From Prevotella sp. (GTDB lineage: Bacteria > Bacteroidota > Bacteroidia > Bacteroidales > Bacteroidaceae), in the NCBI GenBank assembly GCA_017483185.1, contig JAFULM010000045.1, forward strand, positions 1 to 38,753: a stretch of DNA of 38,753 nt, given 5' to 3'. Positions within the stretch are counted from its first letter, which is position 1, and the number at the start of each line of letters is the position of its first letter. This document shows, piece after piece, positions 3,244-29,632 of the stretch. Below the pieces are notes generated by a model that saw nothing but the letters and a program-made list of their open reading frames with translations, was not told the DNA's origin and did not search any database. Position numbers and translations under genes: made by a program.

Positions 3244-5066
3244 ACATTATGATGAAACAATATACAGAGAAACACGGTCGGAGGATGTGTCATAATACGT
3301 TTCATGGAAGTTGTAGGGATATATTCTTGTATTTGTCCGTTCATGGGATGTTTGTAGCCGATGACCGTCTTGCGGACAGATACAAGAATATGTCCCTACG
3401 GTGTGCATCATGTGTGCTTCTGATGCTGACTATCTGTTCTGCCTTCCCCATGACAGCCGTCGCTGCGGAGACCTCCGACACGCTCTCGGCGGCTTCAGCA
3501 ACACTTGCTCCGGAGGCCGTGGACAGCATGGCGAGCCATTATCTGAGGCTTGTGACTTCTGAGAGTGATGAGATTTTTATGAGGAGTGGGGAACGAGAAT
3601 TGTGGAGCAGAAACAGCGACAATGCTCCAAGACTATCCACATCTTTCTCTTTGGGAGAAGAGACTGTGGCAAAGGCTGTCAATCCCAAATCCCCCTTTGG
3701 AGAAACGAAAAGGGACTATTGGCTCGCTGCGGCCGAAGTGATAGGCATCAACGCCTTCGTGCAGTGCTTCGACCGCTTCGTTCTTGACGCCGAATATGCC
3801 CAGATAAACCTCCACACCATCCACCACAACCTGAAGACGGGCTTCGTCTGGGACAACGACCAGTTCTCCACCAACCTCTTTGCACATCCATATCACGGCG
3901 GCCTCTACTTCAACGCCGCCCGCAGCAACGGACTCAACTTCTGGCAGTCGGTCCCGTATGCTTTCGGCGGCAGTCTGATGTGGGAGACGATGTGTGAGAT
4001 CGAGCCGCCCGCCATCAATGACCTCATGGCCACCACGCTCGGCGGAATAGCCATCGGAGAGGTCACCTACCGCGTCAGCGACCTCATCTACGACGACAGC
4101 AAGCGCGGCATGGCCCGCTTCTGGCGCGAGTTTCTCGGTACGGTGGTCTGTCCTATCCGCGGACTCAACCGCATCATCCGCGGCGAAGCGTGGCGTGTCC
4201 GCCGTGACGGCGGCGGCCGCTATCACGACTACGACCGTCTGCCGGTCACTCTGTCGCTGTCCGCCGGCATGCGTTATCTTGCCGACGACAACGCCATGTT
4301 CCGCGGAGAGACCAACCCCTACGTCAATGTGGGACTTGTCTACGGCGATCCATACGATGAGACGACCAACCGTCCGTATGACTATTTCACGGCCGACGTG
4401 ACCTTCGGACTCAGTTCCAACCAACCCCTCATCAGCGGCATCCACCTGCTCGGACAACTCTGGAGCGCACCGGTCTATTCCGACAATGGCATGCAGGCGG
4501 AGTTCGGACTCTTCCAACACTTCAACTACTACGACTCCCAGCCCGTCAAGGACGGCACCAATCTCGTCCCCTTCCGTATCTCCGAAGCCGCCTCCGTCGG
4601 TCCGGGACTCATCTACCGCTTCCCCGCGGTGGGCAATCTGGCACGCCTCGAGCAGCGCATCTTCCTCAGCGGAATACTCCTCGGCGGTTCGCTGAGCGAC
4701 TACTACAGCTTCATCGACCGCGACTACAACATGGGAAGCGGCTATAGTGTCAAAGTCCACACGATGATGGACTTCGGCCGTTTCGGCCGTTTCATGCTCG
4801 GCGCCGACTACTACAACATCTTCACGTGGAAGGGATATGAGTCCCACGACCCTGCGACCATCGACCCGCTCTACCTCAACGCGCAGGGCGACAAGGGCAG
4901 TGCGCTGCTCTTTGTGCTCACGCCGCGCCTCCAGCTGACTCTGACGGACAACCTCAGCGTCGACTTATCGACGTCCTACTATCTCCGCGAGACCCACTAT
5001 TCTTATCACGACGACGTCCGTGCCCACACATTCACGGCGCAGCTCGGGCTGGCGTGGAGGTTGTAG
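3240..5066 (+). CDS. DUF3943-family outer-membrane protein carrying an in-frame palindromic insert
   Basis: From 3240 the product has 608 residues. Residues of about 157-300 match the DUF3943 pattern, with RDYWLAAAEVIGIN, a region of NLHTIHHNLKTGFVWDNDQF, and HPYHGGLYFNAARSNG. The remainder is rich in aromatic alternating strands typical of an outer-membrane barrel and ends in LAWRL. The ATG at 3240 overlaps the previous stop by 4 nt, suggesting translational coupling. Residues of about 25-53 are encoded by an 87-bp family B repeat (3313-3399), an exact 29 codons. The repeat supplies an in-frame ATG at 3390, from which the product would be a 558-residue protein starting directly with a signal peptide (MSLRCASCVLLMLTICSAF). 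Either start is possible, and the signal peptide works best from 3390. A family D-like patch at about 3685-3705 encodes NPKSPFGE. Function unknown. Confidence 0.8.
   Translation: MNIMMKQYTEKHGRRMCHNTFHGSCRDIFLYLSVHGMFVADDRLADRYKNMSLRCASCVLLMLTICSAFPMTAVAAETSDTLSAASATLAPEAVDSMASHYLRLVTSESDEIFMRSGERELWSRNSDNAPRLSTSFSLGEETVAKAVNPKSPFGETKRDYWLAAAEVIGINAFVQCFDRFVLDAEYAQINLHTIHHNLKTGFVWDNDQFSTNLFAHPYHGGLYFNAARSNGLNFWQSVPYAFGGSLMWETMCEIEPPAINDLMATTLGGIAIGEVTYRVSDLIYDDSKRGMARFWREFLGTVVCPIRGLNRIIRGEAWRVRRDGGGRYHDYDRLPVTLSLSAGMRYLADDNAMFRGETNPYVNVGLVYGDPYDETTNRPYDYFTADVTFGLSSNQPLISGIHLLGQLWSAPVYSDNGMQAEFGLFQHFNYYDSQPVKDGTNLVPFRISEAASVGPGLIYRFPAVGNLARLEQRIFLSGILLGGSLSDYYSFIDRDYNMGSGYSVKVHTMMDFGRFGRFMLGADYYNIFTWKGYESHDPATIDPLYLNAQGDKGSALLFVLTPRLQLTLTDNLSVDLSTSYYLRETHYSYHDDVRAHTFTAQLGLAWRL
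3313..3399. repeat. Family B palindromic repeat, copy 1, inside a coding region
   Basis: Two 27-bp arms (3313-3339 and 3373-3399) are reverse complements with two mismatches and enclose a 33-bp spacer. Each arm starts GTAGGG (reading inwards) and can itself fold, with GGACA pairing to TGTCC. The total of 87 bp equals the second copy at 25753-25839 although the spacers differ. In the gene frame the arms read RDIFLYLS and RYKNMSL without a stop. Confidence 0.9.
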
Positions 5067-5090: not shown

Positions 5091-5222
5091 TCCCCAAGTA
5101 GGGTCGCGACCCGTCGCGACCGCCTCCGTGTCACAAAACCACCCATACACACAATTCCTCCGTGCAAGTCAAAACCACGAGGCACGGAGGCGGTCGCGAC
5201 GGGTCGCGACCCTACTTGGGGA
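5091..5222. repeat. Family A palindromic repeat, copy 2 (complete)
   Basis: Perfect 40-bp inverted arms (5091-5130 and 5183-5222) enclose a 52-bp spacer. Each arm contains GTAGGGTCGCGACC, with the 12-bp palindrome GGGTCGCGACCC, and a second TCGCGACC. The element begins 24 nt after the DUF3943 stop codon and could end its transcript. The full gap 5067-6132 has no supportable gene. It holds this element, the composite at 5448-5716 and the arrays at 5827-6044. Confidence 0.95.
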
Positions 5223-5447: not shown

Positions 5448-5716
5448 AGCCCCCTCTGACTCCCCCAAAGGGGGAGCTTGGGCTTCCCGTAAGGGCCGCG
5501 CGGGGTTGCAACGGGGCTGCTATTGCATTGCAACGGCGGCCCCGTTGCAACATGACGGCGTGCCCGTTGCAACCTCGCGGGGGCCCCGTTACTCGACAAA
5601 ACCCTCTTTTTGACCTCAAAACAGCAATCAAAAACTCGCCGACTTTTGCAAAATTTGAAAGCCATAAGGGCCTCCCGGCATCCCAAGCTCCCCCTTTGGG
5701 GGAGTCAGAGGGGGCT
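5448..5716. repeat. Composite repeat: family C core nested in family D arms
   Basis: Perfect 35-bp inverted arms at 5448-5482 and 5682-5716 are built on CTCCCCCTTTGGGGGAG and its complement. Just inside the left arm, 5485-5593 is a 109-bp family C element with GTAAGGGCC near its left end, GGGGCCCCGTTAC near its right end, and repeated GTTGCAAC words. Between it and the right arm is A+T-rich DNA with TTTTGCAAAATTTG, a word also found near the family C copy at 29237. Frames that stay open here are repeat artefacts. Confidence 0.85.
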
Positions 5717-6132: not shown

Positions 6133-6687
6133 ATGGACGAACAGATAAGACAAATCGGTGAGCGGCTGCGCGGACTGCGTGAGGTGCTCGACATCCCGGC
6201 CGAGGAGGTGGCCGAACTGTGCGGCATCACTCTCGAACACTATCAGAAAATTGAAGCAGGTGAGGCCGACCCGTCGGTCTATCGGTTGTCGAAGATAGCC
6301 AAGCGCTATGGCATCGCCCTCGACGTGCTGATGTTCGGCGAAGAACCGCGCATGAGCAGCTATTTCCTCACGCGCGCCGGGCAGGGCATGGCCGTGGAGC
6401 GTCGCAAGAGTTATAAGTATCAGAGCTTGGCGAGTGGATTTCGCGGTCGCAAGTTCGACACATATCTGACGCAGGTCGACCCGCTGCCCGACGACGCCCG
6501 GTTCAATAAGAACGCCCATGACGGACAGGAATTCGACTATATCGTCGAGGGACGGATGGAGATAACCATCGGCAACAAGGTGATGGAGCTCGGTCCCGGC
6601 GACAGCATCTTCTTCGACGCCTCACAACCGCACTGCATGCGTGCGCTCGACGGGCAACCGGTGAAGTTTCTCGTGGTGGTGGAGTAG
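6133..6687 (+). CDS. XRE-family transcriptional regulator with C-terminal cupin domain
   Basis: The 184-residue protein has an XRE helix-turn-helix at about residues 6-65 (recognition region PAEEVAELCGITLEHYQKIE) and a cupin_2 barrel at about 115-183 (DYIVEGRMEITIGNKVMELG, then GDSIFFDASQPHCMRA). In this architecture the cupin senses a small ligand and the N-terminal domain binds DNA. The next gene downstream encodes an acyl-CoA synthetase, which suggests it controls that gene or senses a related carboxylate or acyl-CoA. This is inference from context. The two genes are separated by a family A repeat that begins 6 nt after this stop codon, which could attenuate read-through. The ATG at 6133 fits the -7 box at 6097. 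Confidence 0.85.
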   Translation: MDEQIRQIGERLRGLREVLDIPAEEVAELCGITLEHYQKIEAGEADPSVYRLSKIAKRYGIALDVLMFGEEPRMSSYFLTRAGQGMAVERRKSYKYQSLASGFRGRKFDTYLTQVDPLPDDARFNKNAHDGQEFDYIVEGRMEITIGNKVMELGPGDSIFFDASQPHCMRALDGQPVKFLVVVE

Positions 6688-6693
6688 GCGCAT

Positions 6694-6803
6694 GTAGGGT
6701 CGCGACCCGTTGCGACCGCCACGGTAACCACATAAATTATTAAGTAGACCGGATAAATTGAACCGGTTGGTATGGAGGCGGTCGCGACGGGTCGCGACCC
6801 TAC
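6694..6803. repeat. Family A palindromic repeat, copy 3
   Basis: The left arm at 6694-6720 begins GTAGGGTCGCGACC. The right arm at about 6775-6803 ends GGTCGCGACCCTAC. The spacer differs from other copies and includes ACCGGATAAATTGAACCGGT. The element starts 6 nt after the stop of the XRE-cupin gene and ends 89 nt before the ATG of the acyl-CoA synthetase gene. Confidence 0.9.
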
Positions 6804-13949: not shown

Positions 13950-14080
13950 CACAAGTAGGGTCGCGACCCGTCGCGACCGCCTCCTTGCCAATATGTTTTT
14001 CAAATCATCGGTTTTGCTTATATGCATGGTCTGTGGTGTGGGCAACGAGGCGGTCGCGACGGGTCGCGACCCTACTTGTG
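13950..14080. repeat. Family A palindromic repeat, copy 4
   Basis: Perfect 34-bp inverted arms (13950-13983 and 14047-14080) enclose a spacer unrelated to the other copies. The arms contain GTAGGGTCGCGACC and a second TCGCGACC. The element begins 26 nt after the DUF3109 stop. The gap 13924-14268 contains this element and the short tandem repeats at 14152-14238, and no gene. Confidence 0.93.
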
Positions 14081-20456: not shown

Positions 20457-20602
20457 ATATGTGGACAAACGGTTGAAAAAATTCTGTGATTCGTAAATAT
20501 CCGACTTTCGGGCCGAAAATCGCCGATTTTTGACGCTTTTTGTAAACGCCTGATATATTGTGGGTTACGTCGGTTGGCGATGATGTGCCGATTTTTCGGT
20601 CT

Positions 20603-20711
20603 TGCCGTAAGGGCCTCCCGGGGTCGCCGCGGGGCCGCCGTTGCATCGCGACGGGGCGCTCGTTGCACGATGACGGGGCTGCCGCGGCGACCCCGGGAGG
20701 GCCTTACGGCA
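20603..20711. repeat. Family C palindromic repeat, copy 2
   Basis: Perfect 30-bp inverted arms (20603-20632 and 20682-20711) begin TGCCGTAAGGGCCTCCCGGG and end with the complement, enclosing a 49-bp core with GTTGCAnnnnGACGGGGC words. The total of 109 bp equals the copy at 29237-29345. The gap 20268-20909 contains this element and the hairpin at 20431-20456. I see no gene in it. Confidence 0.92.
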
Positions 20712-20909
20712 GGATGACGTCGGTATGTTAGTGATGACGGTACATGAATATTGCATGTTTATACGGTTTTCGCCGAAGTTTTGCGAAGGCCGTATGTGTC
20801 GATTTTGGTATGGAATGTTTACAAACGGAGGGCCGTTTGTAAGTTATTGTGACATATTGGGGCGGGGTGGAGATATGTGCCGTGGTGTTGTGCGGCGGCT
20901 GCGGATGTG

Positions 20910-25711: not shown

Positions 25712-25881
25712 CGAGACAGCGATGGTGTGTCAAAATGGCTACATGGTGTTTGGTAGGGACATATTCTTGTATTTGTCCGCAAAACAAGAACTGAATCTCA
25801 ATACGTTACGAGCGGACAAATACAAGAATATGTCCCTACAATGTGCTTCCCCCTGCATTTTGATACACCATCGCTGTCTCG
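25712..25881. repeat. Family B palindromic repeat, copy 2, inside a second inverted repeat
   Basis: The inner element (25753-25839) is 87 bp with perfect 27-bp arms and a 33-bp spacer. It is surrounded by a 26-bp outer inverted repeat (CGAGACAGCGATGGTGTGTC from 25712; complement ending 25881) with one mismatch. The gap 25515-25923 holds this element and the mnmG promoter. The frame of MVCQNG... that stays open here is read from the repeat and is not a supported gene. Confidence 0.9.
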
Positions 25882-29100: not shown

Positions 29101-29236
29101 TAACACCGCATTAAGTAAATTCGTGTCATAATAATGTCACAAATTTAACACAAGAAAATCGCTCCGAAAAAACGGCGGAGACGCTCCGGTTTTGACATTC
29201 GTGCGTCATTTTCCGACCGAAAATTTTCCGCGGTCC

Positions 29237-29345
29237 TGCCGTAAGGGCCCCGTTGGTCCGCAATGAGCACGCCGTTGTCCTGCAACGAGCATGCCGCTGT
29301 CATGCAACGGCGGCCCCGTTGCAACGCCGCGGGGCCCTTACGGCA
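29237..29345. repeat. Family C palindromic repeat, copy 3
   Basis: The ends TGCCGTAAGGGCCCCG (from 29237) and CGGGGCCCTTACGGCA (to 29345) are exact complements. The core contains CGTTGTCCTGCAACGAGC and GTCATGCAACGGCGGCCCCG words shared with the other copies. The length is 109 bp, as in copy 2. The gap 28954-29828 holds the xylanase promoter, this element, the family A copy at 29537 and the sdhC promoter, and no gene. Confidence 0.9.
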
Positions 29346-29536: not shown

Positions 29537-29632
29537 ACAAGTAGGGTCGCGACCTGTCGCGACCGCCTCCATGCCTCAACACCCATCTGCGACCAACCAC
29601 ATAATCGGTTGTTACGGAGGCGACCCTACTTG
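29537..29632. repeat. Family A palindromic repeat, copy 5, internally deleted
   Basis: The left arm (29537-29570) is nearly intact, beginning ACAAGTAGGGTCGCGACC. The right arm (about 29615-29632) reads GGAGGCGACCCTACTTGT and lacks about 16 bp containing the GTCGCGACGGG part. The deletion ends lie between repeated GTCGC words, so it probably arose by slippage. Confidence 0.85.

Follow-up and report, generated by a model that had tools for sequence, protein, structure and literature searches.

REPIN-RAYT systems have, to our knowledge, been studied almost only in Proteobacteria, where several REPIN populations can share one genome. Among the closest described repeats are the GTAG REP families and REPtrons compiled by Di Nocera et al. 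(2013, PMC3733652), which combine a GTAG foot with a stem of 6-13 bp and form head-to-head dimers. Some of these dimers lie within longer palindromes; in the sections of the paper available here, target palindromes unlinked to REPs were not found in two hosts. Its survey assigns GTAG repeats to Proteobacteria, Cyanobacteria, Chloroflexi and the PVC group and, in the same sections, only CGTC repeats to Bacteroidetes. As far as the accessible text of Quentin et al. (2018, PMC6006769) goes, RAYT subclasses 2.4 and 2.6 with REP-like structures are known from Bacteroidetes, TnpAY1 subclass 2.4 corresponds to RAYT group 4, and single hairpins with a "double foot" are explained as the central deletion of a dimer. 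For the TnpAREP-REP duos of E. coli and of S. maltophilia/Marinomonas, the portions of PMC8266576 at hand describe bulged versus perfect palindromes that co-evolved with the enzyme, as well as recognition and cutting of single-stranded DNA by TnpAREP.

Here we report two repeat families, A and B, from a Prevotella genome, which very probably represent independent REPIN populations, with a separate RAYT acting on each. With the REPINs of Pseudomonas and other Proteobacteria they have in common facing hairpins, GTAG outer feet, high copy number, intergenic placement and a RAYT bracketed by REPs. They differ from them in their host, in that the two RAYTs are only 30% identical, and in that the two REP types diverge, the stem being perfect in A but interrupted by an inner mismatch in B. 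The GTAG foot, stem and head-to-head dimers are those of the families described in the available part of PMC3733652, and the occurrence of GTAG repeats in Prevotella departs from the CGTC repeats to which its survey, in that part, restricts Bacteroidetes. The two recognition styles, bulged and perfect, match those in the consulted portion of PMC8266576; here both stem types, known from sequence, reside in one genome. No report of REPINs in Prevotella was found in the openly licensed PMC literature. Since PMC6006769, in its accessible text, gives subclasses 2.4 and 2.6 with REP-like structures, elements of this kind are already known in Bacteroidetes, and they are well known from other bacteria; the A and B systems are a good new example. 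What Prevotella adds is a single genome in which two unrelated RAYT types each have matching arms.

Families A and B in the window and in the genome

The window, i.e., the whole stretch of 38,753 nt of DNA that was analysed, is part of a Prevotella draft genome (G000; 2,472,748 bases, 61 contigs, 74.7% complete). It contains five copies of family A and two of family B, located where an earlier note on this DNA had placed them. The stretch originally singled out (5091-5222) consists of an A element of 118 nt (5098-5215), in which two facing arms surround a spacer, and a few bases of its flanks, CATCCCCAA and TTGGGGATG. Two further facing pairs, of 110 nt (6694-6803) and 121 nt (13955-14075), are both missing at the syntenic places in the nearest relative, G323; the former begins no more than 10 nt from the stop codon of ORF 6133-6687. 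The copy at 1-101 is truncated by the contig start, has its right arm on the minus strand (87-101) and is 98% identical to 5115-5215. The left arm of the copy at 29541-29629 is intact; its right arm has decayed, with three mismatches within the first 15 nt, and retains the GTAG head. Both B elements are 87 nt long. The one at 3313-3399 has arms of the form GTAG-GGACAtAT..AT.TGTCC, and the one at 25753-25839 has outer flanks starting with TGTGTCAAAATG on both sides and inner flank halves of two types. A 15-mer of family A, GTAGGGTCGCGACCC, has 17 matches in the window with up to three mismatches, internal matches of the palindrome included, versus 1.31 expected, and none of 100 shuffles reached 17.

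Two further kinds of repeat were seen in the window. An imperfect palindromic repeat rich in GTTGCAACGGGG occurs at 5480-5585, 20598-20714 and 29232-29345, and hairpins resembling it are present in other sampled stretches. At 1262-1349, an 11-bp unit (TAAGCGTCTGA, with variants) is repeated in tandem, and nothing alike follows nearby.

The arms begin with GTAG when read inward, as the earlier note had observed. This holds for all nine A arms of the window, the decayed arm counted, and in 61 sampled stretches including the window (200,399 bp) for 100 of 102 A arms, the other two reading GTAT, and for 51/51 B arms; 72 of the 102 A arms and 35 of the 51 B arms match the respective 27-nt reference exactly. 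The idea that the arms end sharply at GTAG has to be modified: a loose consensus extends about 8 nt further outward, with roughly ATCCACAA (A) or AGCACAYK (B) directly before GTAG. The A arm reads GTAG-GGTCGCGA-CCCG-TCGCGACC-GCC, such that a hairpin with an 8-bp stem and a 4-nt CCCG loop follows directly after the foot. The palindrome GGGTCGCGACCC, originally taken for the A hairpin, is shorter and was rejected, as the covarying stem GGTCGCGA/TCGCGACC sits in another register. In the B arm, GTAG-GGACATAT-TCTTGT-ATTTGTCC, the stem spans eight positions and includes a T-T mismatch.

The stems are backed by comparison across species. In nine A-type arms (without L096, L103, L348 and L349, which have a 5-nt loop or another register) 98.6% of cells are paired and two-sided changes affect five of eight pairs, a value reached by 2 of 500 shuffles; the covariation score was reached by none of the 500. 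For nine B-type arms, two of which are variants from G000 itself and which exclude arms of other length (L078, L080, L082, L086, L087, L090-L093), the corresponding figures are 93.1% and four of eight pairs (116 of 500 shuffles), and again no shuffle of 500 attained the covariation score.

Copies confined to the locus of the window can be dismissed. The A core GTAGGGTCGCGACC, with up to one mismatch, is found at 206 places in G000 (107 on the plus and 99 on the minus strand) and the 27-nt B arm, with up to three mismatches, at 134 (70 plus, 64 minus), while the reversed patterns used as controls gave 0 for either family. These counts are lower bounds because several contigs break in or beside copies. 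Contigs C3, C4, C6, C8, C27, C32 and C42 start or end inside or beside A or B copies, and the repeats probably fragment the assembly.

Pairing was resolved in the window and 80 stretches around listed matches (81 stretches, 252,927 of 2,472,748 bp), and pairs dominate over singlets. For A, 47 facing pairs with GTAG outside were counted versus 20 unpaired arms, ten of which lie within 300 bp of a stretch end. For B, the numbers are 47 facing pairs and seven unpaired arms. The length of B pairs is nearly constant (exactly 87 nt in 29 of 47, range 68-100), and A pairs measure 99 to 183 nt, apart from one of the 47 which is a 28-nt "double foot" hairpin. Such single hairpins, as described in the available text of PMC6006769, occur in both families (A, C19:17823-17850; B, C33:3087). 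Eight A and five B midpoints, out of 47 elements in each family, fall within rough ORF calls, which cover 74% of the sampled DNA.

RAYT genes in the genome and in the genus

No more than a perhaps had been attached to the idea that each population is served by its own RAYT, and this idea is supported: G000 itself has two RAYT-type Y1/HuH genes, and A arms bracket one of them, B arms the other. RAYT-B (G000:C41:25966-26547, minus strand) is an ORF of 193 aa with a Pfam Y1_Tnp match at C41:26098-26382(-), and was the only gene picked up by the search with this profile. RAYT-A (G000:C42:21467-22027, plus strand; 186 aa) was found by a protein search with RAYT-B, to which it is 30% identical across 183 residues. 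A pairs lie on both sides of RAYT-A (L104:1297-1401 and L104:2212-2342). For RAYT-B, one B arm is inside the 3' end of the gene (L001:1379-1405, plus) and two are upstream (1967-1993 and 2034-2060, both minus). One of the B arms of RAYT-B (L001:1369-1405, on G000:C41) encodes the final residues of the protein, GQIQEYVPT, and the same applies to Xylanibacter rodentium (L186:3984-4010). Each RAYT gene is single in G000, so it is the arms that have multiplied and not the gene. A single RAYT serving both families was considered and rejected.

Both proteins score higher with NCBIfam REP_Tyr_transpos (RAYT-B 77.6 bits, E 8e-22; RAYT-A 51.8 bits, E 8e-14; both under the curated cut-off of 80 bits) than with transpos_IS200 (28.9 and 13.7 bits, respectively). 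With Pfam Y1_Tnp, RAYT-B scores 40.8 and RAYT-A, at 21.6, stays below the cut-off of 23. TnpArep 4er8 is the best PDB match of both (E 3.8e-5 for RAYT-B and a weak 0.029 for RAYT-A). The pattern of IS200/IS605, i.e., an autonomous insertion sequence in several identical copies with subterminal hairpins, was not found in G000, and no TnpB was recognised by eye among the ORFs of at least 100 aa adjoining RAYT-A (L104). The catalytic motifs are NHVH and YINNN in RAYT-A and NHLH and YIYLNP in RAYT-B. We do not claim a placement in subclass 2.4, because its Y motif YIxNNP, as given in the accessible text of PMC6006769, is matched neither by RAYT-A (YINNNI) nor by RAYT-B (YIYLNP); 11 A-type genes read YIxxN[VI] or YVLNNV. 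Another feature of that subclass in the same text, a REP in frame within tnpAREP, is present by motif in 4 of 11 A-type genes, and an in-frame REP in RAYT-A itself was seen by eye only (L104, about 1821-1845).

The families thus show facing pairs with GTAG outward, arms made of GTAG and a hairpin, many dispersed copies and a cognate RAYT flanked by the same arms. By analogy with the biochemistry of TnpAREP from E. coli and other organisms, the RAYT would bind single-stranded DNA at the hairpin and its GTAG foot and cut beside them, and the two arms would travel together to other intergenic sites, probably while the DNA is being replicated. We infer mobility, and mobilisation by RAYT, for both families; across genomes, arm number correlates with the A-type RAYT.

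RAYT-B sits between two kor genes, which we take to encode 2-oxoacid:ferredoxin oxidoreductase, and these genes identified the nearest named relatives: an uncultured Prevotella MAG (G323, L185), whose kor proteins are 92.5 and 98.2% identical to those of G000, X. rodentium (G324, L186) and Prevotella sp. MGM1 (G325, L187). Among 80 kor loci, only that of X. rodentium holds a RAYT. This gene (L186:3439-4011) occupies the same place, is 81.7% identical to RAYT-B, has B arms on both sides and carries an in-frame stop codon; family B may be dying in this species. B arms occupy 28 places in X. rodentium, 10 in G323 and 2 in G325, versus 0 in 17 other genomes of the same search. The A core is found at 0 places in G323, G324 and G325. 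Across 20 genomes, three had two one-mismatch matches each, and reversed controls gave as many; the 27-nt A arm is absent from all 59 other relatives searched. Judged by these sequence comparisons, A, which was absent from each of the three closest genomes examined, has the look of a recent burst; B, which they share, seems to be an older population. Insertion sites were compared only against other species, where A is absent, and a letter-by-letter empty site was not found in G323-G325, whose intergenic stretches are too diverged. Terminators behind korB vary between species. In L191, L194, L211, L215, L219, L223 and L224 the korA-korB gap contains other small inserted ORFs or ORF fragments, presumably GxxExxY-like and DUF559-like, and the gap may be a frequent insertion point.

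Relatives of RAYT-A were detected in 10 genomes besides G000 (398 searched, E up to 1e-15), and relatives of RAYT-B or weaker matches in 25 (299 searched, E up to 1e-10). Sorted by score, and counting RAYT-A, RAYT-B and the X. rodentium gene, there are 13 A-type and 20 B-type genes, and these often adjoin GTAG-headed arms of their own. When 24-nt arms with the same head and at most five mismatches were required to face each other across the gene, 10 of 13 A-type genes were bracketed; in L097 similar arms can be made out by eye to either side of the gene, and L348 and L349 count as partial cases. Only 10 of 20 B-type genes passed this strict test. Among those that failed, L088 and L089 have arms headed GTAA, in five a facing GTAG pair lies on only one side, L087 has arrays, and L079 and L095 are without arms.

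The pattern GTAGRGACGN{8,11}CGTCY was counted in nine genomes with an A-type RAYT, giving 42, 86, 154, 327, 8, 13, 21, 4 and 170 matches, a few of which are built in since the pattern was drawn from arms beside the A-type RAYTs of the same genomes; G187 and G362 show little beyond these. Eleven other genomes, for several of which the absence of RAYT is deduced from a list of matches that does not name every matchless genome, gave 0, 0, 2, 0, 3, 1, 5, 0, 2, 2 and 0. The one-sided chance of this ordering, calculated by hand, is 2 in 167,960. G224, G393 and G431, three of the 12 other genomes with an A-type RAYT, were left out of the count. Arm number thus appears to follow the A-type RAYT: genomes with the gene have high counts, and those in which it was not seen have next to none. 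Given that family A has 206 places in G000 and no match in its three closest tested relatives, and that arm sequence and RAYT change together across the genus, the start, spread, loss and target choice of REPIN populations become testable outside Proteobacteria.

Palindromic flanks and alternative readings

Many A and B elements of G000 sit centrally in longer palindromes. REP dimers nested in this way are already published, as the available part of PMC3733652 contains them. When the first 20 nt of the two flanks were compared as inverted repeats, A flanks of the same copy scored 9.71 and those of different copies 6.72 (sd 0.34; 42 sites), and B flanks 11.5 versus 7.24 (sd 0.42; 38 sites); in each family none of 5000 permutations reached the observed value. 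Sites with near-duplicate flanks were left out (five of 47 for A, six of 44 for B), as were three of 47 B pairs because a stretch end was too close. The symmetry reaches at least 40 nt at some sites (C5:26004, C19:49655), and about half of the sites in G000 exhibit little of it.

Three families of outer flank were distinguished, C (GGGTGTGTCAAAATG), D (GAGGGTGTTGCAGAAC) and E (CATCCGACATTTGGAGT). Ten D pairs, forming the hairpin GTGTTGCAGAAC, enclose B in five cases, A in three and another palindrome of about 180 nt in two (L116:12-217 and L129:1950-2156). B is enclosed by all five close C pairs and by one of two E pairs, the second E pair being empty. At C48, C52 and C32:25753 (contigs of G000) the outer end of flank family C is present on both sides with unlike inner halves. 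A few candidate empty hairpins were noted (L130:1606-1662, L123:793-827, L175:1294-1328), those of L123 and L175, which are without A or B, with a looser C pattern. Apart from these two C-like cases, 57 short-loop hairpins outside the A and B cores of the sampled stretches are unlike the A and B flanks.

The flanks may have arisen by insertion into existing hairpins, as a composite with another mobile repeat or by later perfection of palindromes. That the RAYTs insert REPINs in the loops of pre-existing hairpins, so that palindrome grows around palindrome, is a tentative possibility. It would account for the match between flanks of the same copy, far above that between different copies in A and B alike, for a D hairpin that encloses A, B or a different palindrome, and for the candidate empty hairpins. 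However, a search of the whole G000 genome for an empty D hairpin revealed none, the sole site found holding a B-like remnant, and the low symmetry at about half of the sites speaks against it, as does the possibility that later template switching perfected imperfect palindromes. Flank symmetry is also lacking in G126, which has an A-type RAYT (5.5 versus 6.85; 4926 of 5000 permutations equalled or exceeded the observed value; 18 clusters, mostly arrays, after exclusion of 4 of 22 whose outer arms do not face each other), and it is weak, and short of significance, among 13 B elements from G323-G325 (7.0 versus 6.08; 628 of 5000 permutations). Palindromic flanks are therefore not a general product of RAYT action. 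We consider it rather improbable that the REPINs of the two RAYTs enter preferentially at the tips of pre-existing intergenic hairpins, nesting palindromes and leaving the outer hairpin intact. If true, such a target choice would make REPINs nearly harmless.

The flanks also bear on the view that ordinary MITEs are at work, with the arms as their ends and with mobility provided by the DDE transposase of an insertion sequence that has terminal inverted repeats, and that the RAYTs merely adjoin copies. The outer sequence GGGTGTGTCAAAATG, which resembles a terminal inverted repeat and surrounds many B copies in G000 and a few in X. rodentium, fits this view, and so do the copies with two different inner ends. 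Yet many copies of both families lack this outer sequence, inspection of C-type copies by eye revealed no direct target duplication, and each of the two unrelated arm families brackets a RAYT of its own. Moreover, A-type and B-type RAYTs of other species have different GTAG arms, and arm number tracks RAYT-A. We therefore regard MITEs as a highly unlikely explanation. That the repeats are non-mobile structures, i.e., terminators or RNA hairpins maintained by selection and multiplied by recombination, is hardly credible, since their strong hairpins and mostly intergenic position, often downstream of gene ends, stand against exact GTAG feet at both ends, a cognate RAYT per family, species-specific sequences and the missing A copies at syntenic places in G323.

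Two REPIN populations with a RAYT each thus stay the preferred reading. A different arrangement of REPs was seen in G126 (e.g., G126:C5:269393-269949), where they form long arrays with alternating or repeated arms; the two outer flanks of these arrays differ, often with GGCGTCAGCC on one side and a short run of A on the other.
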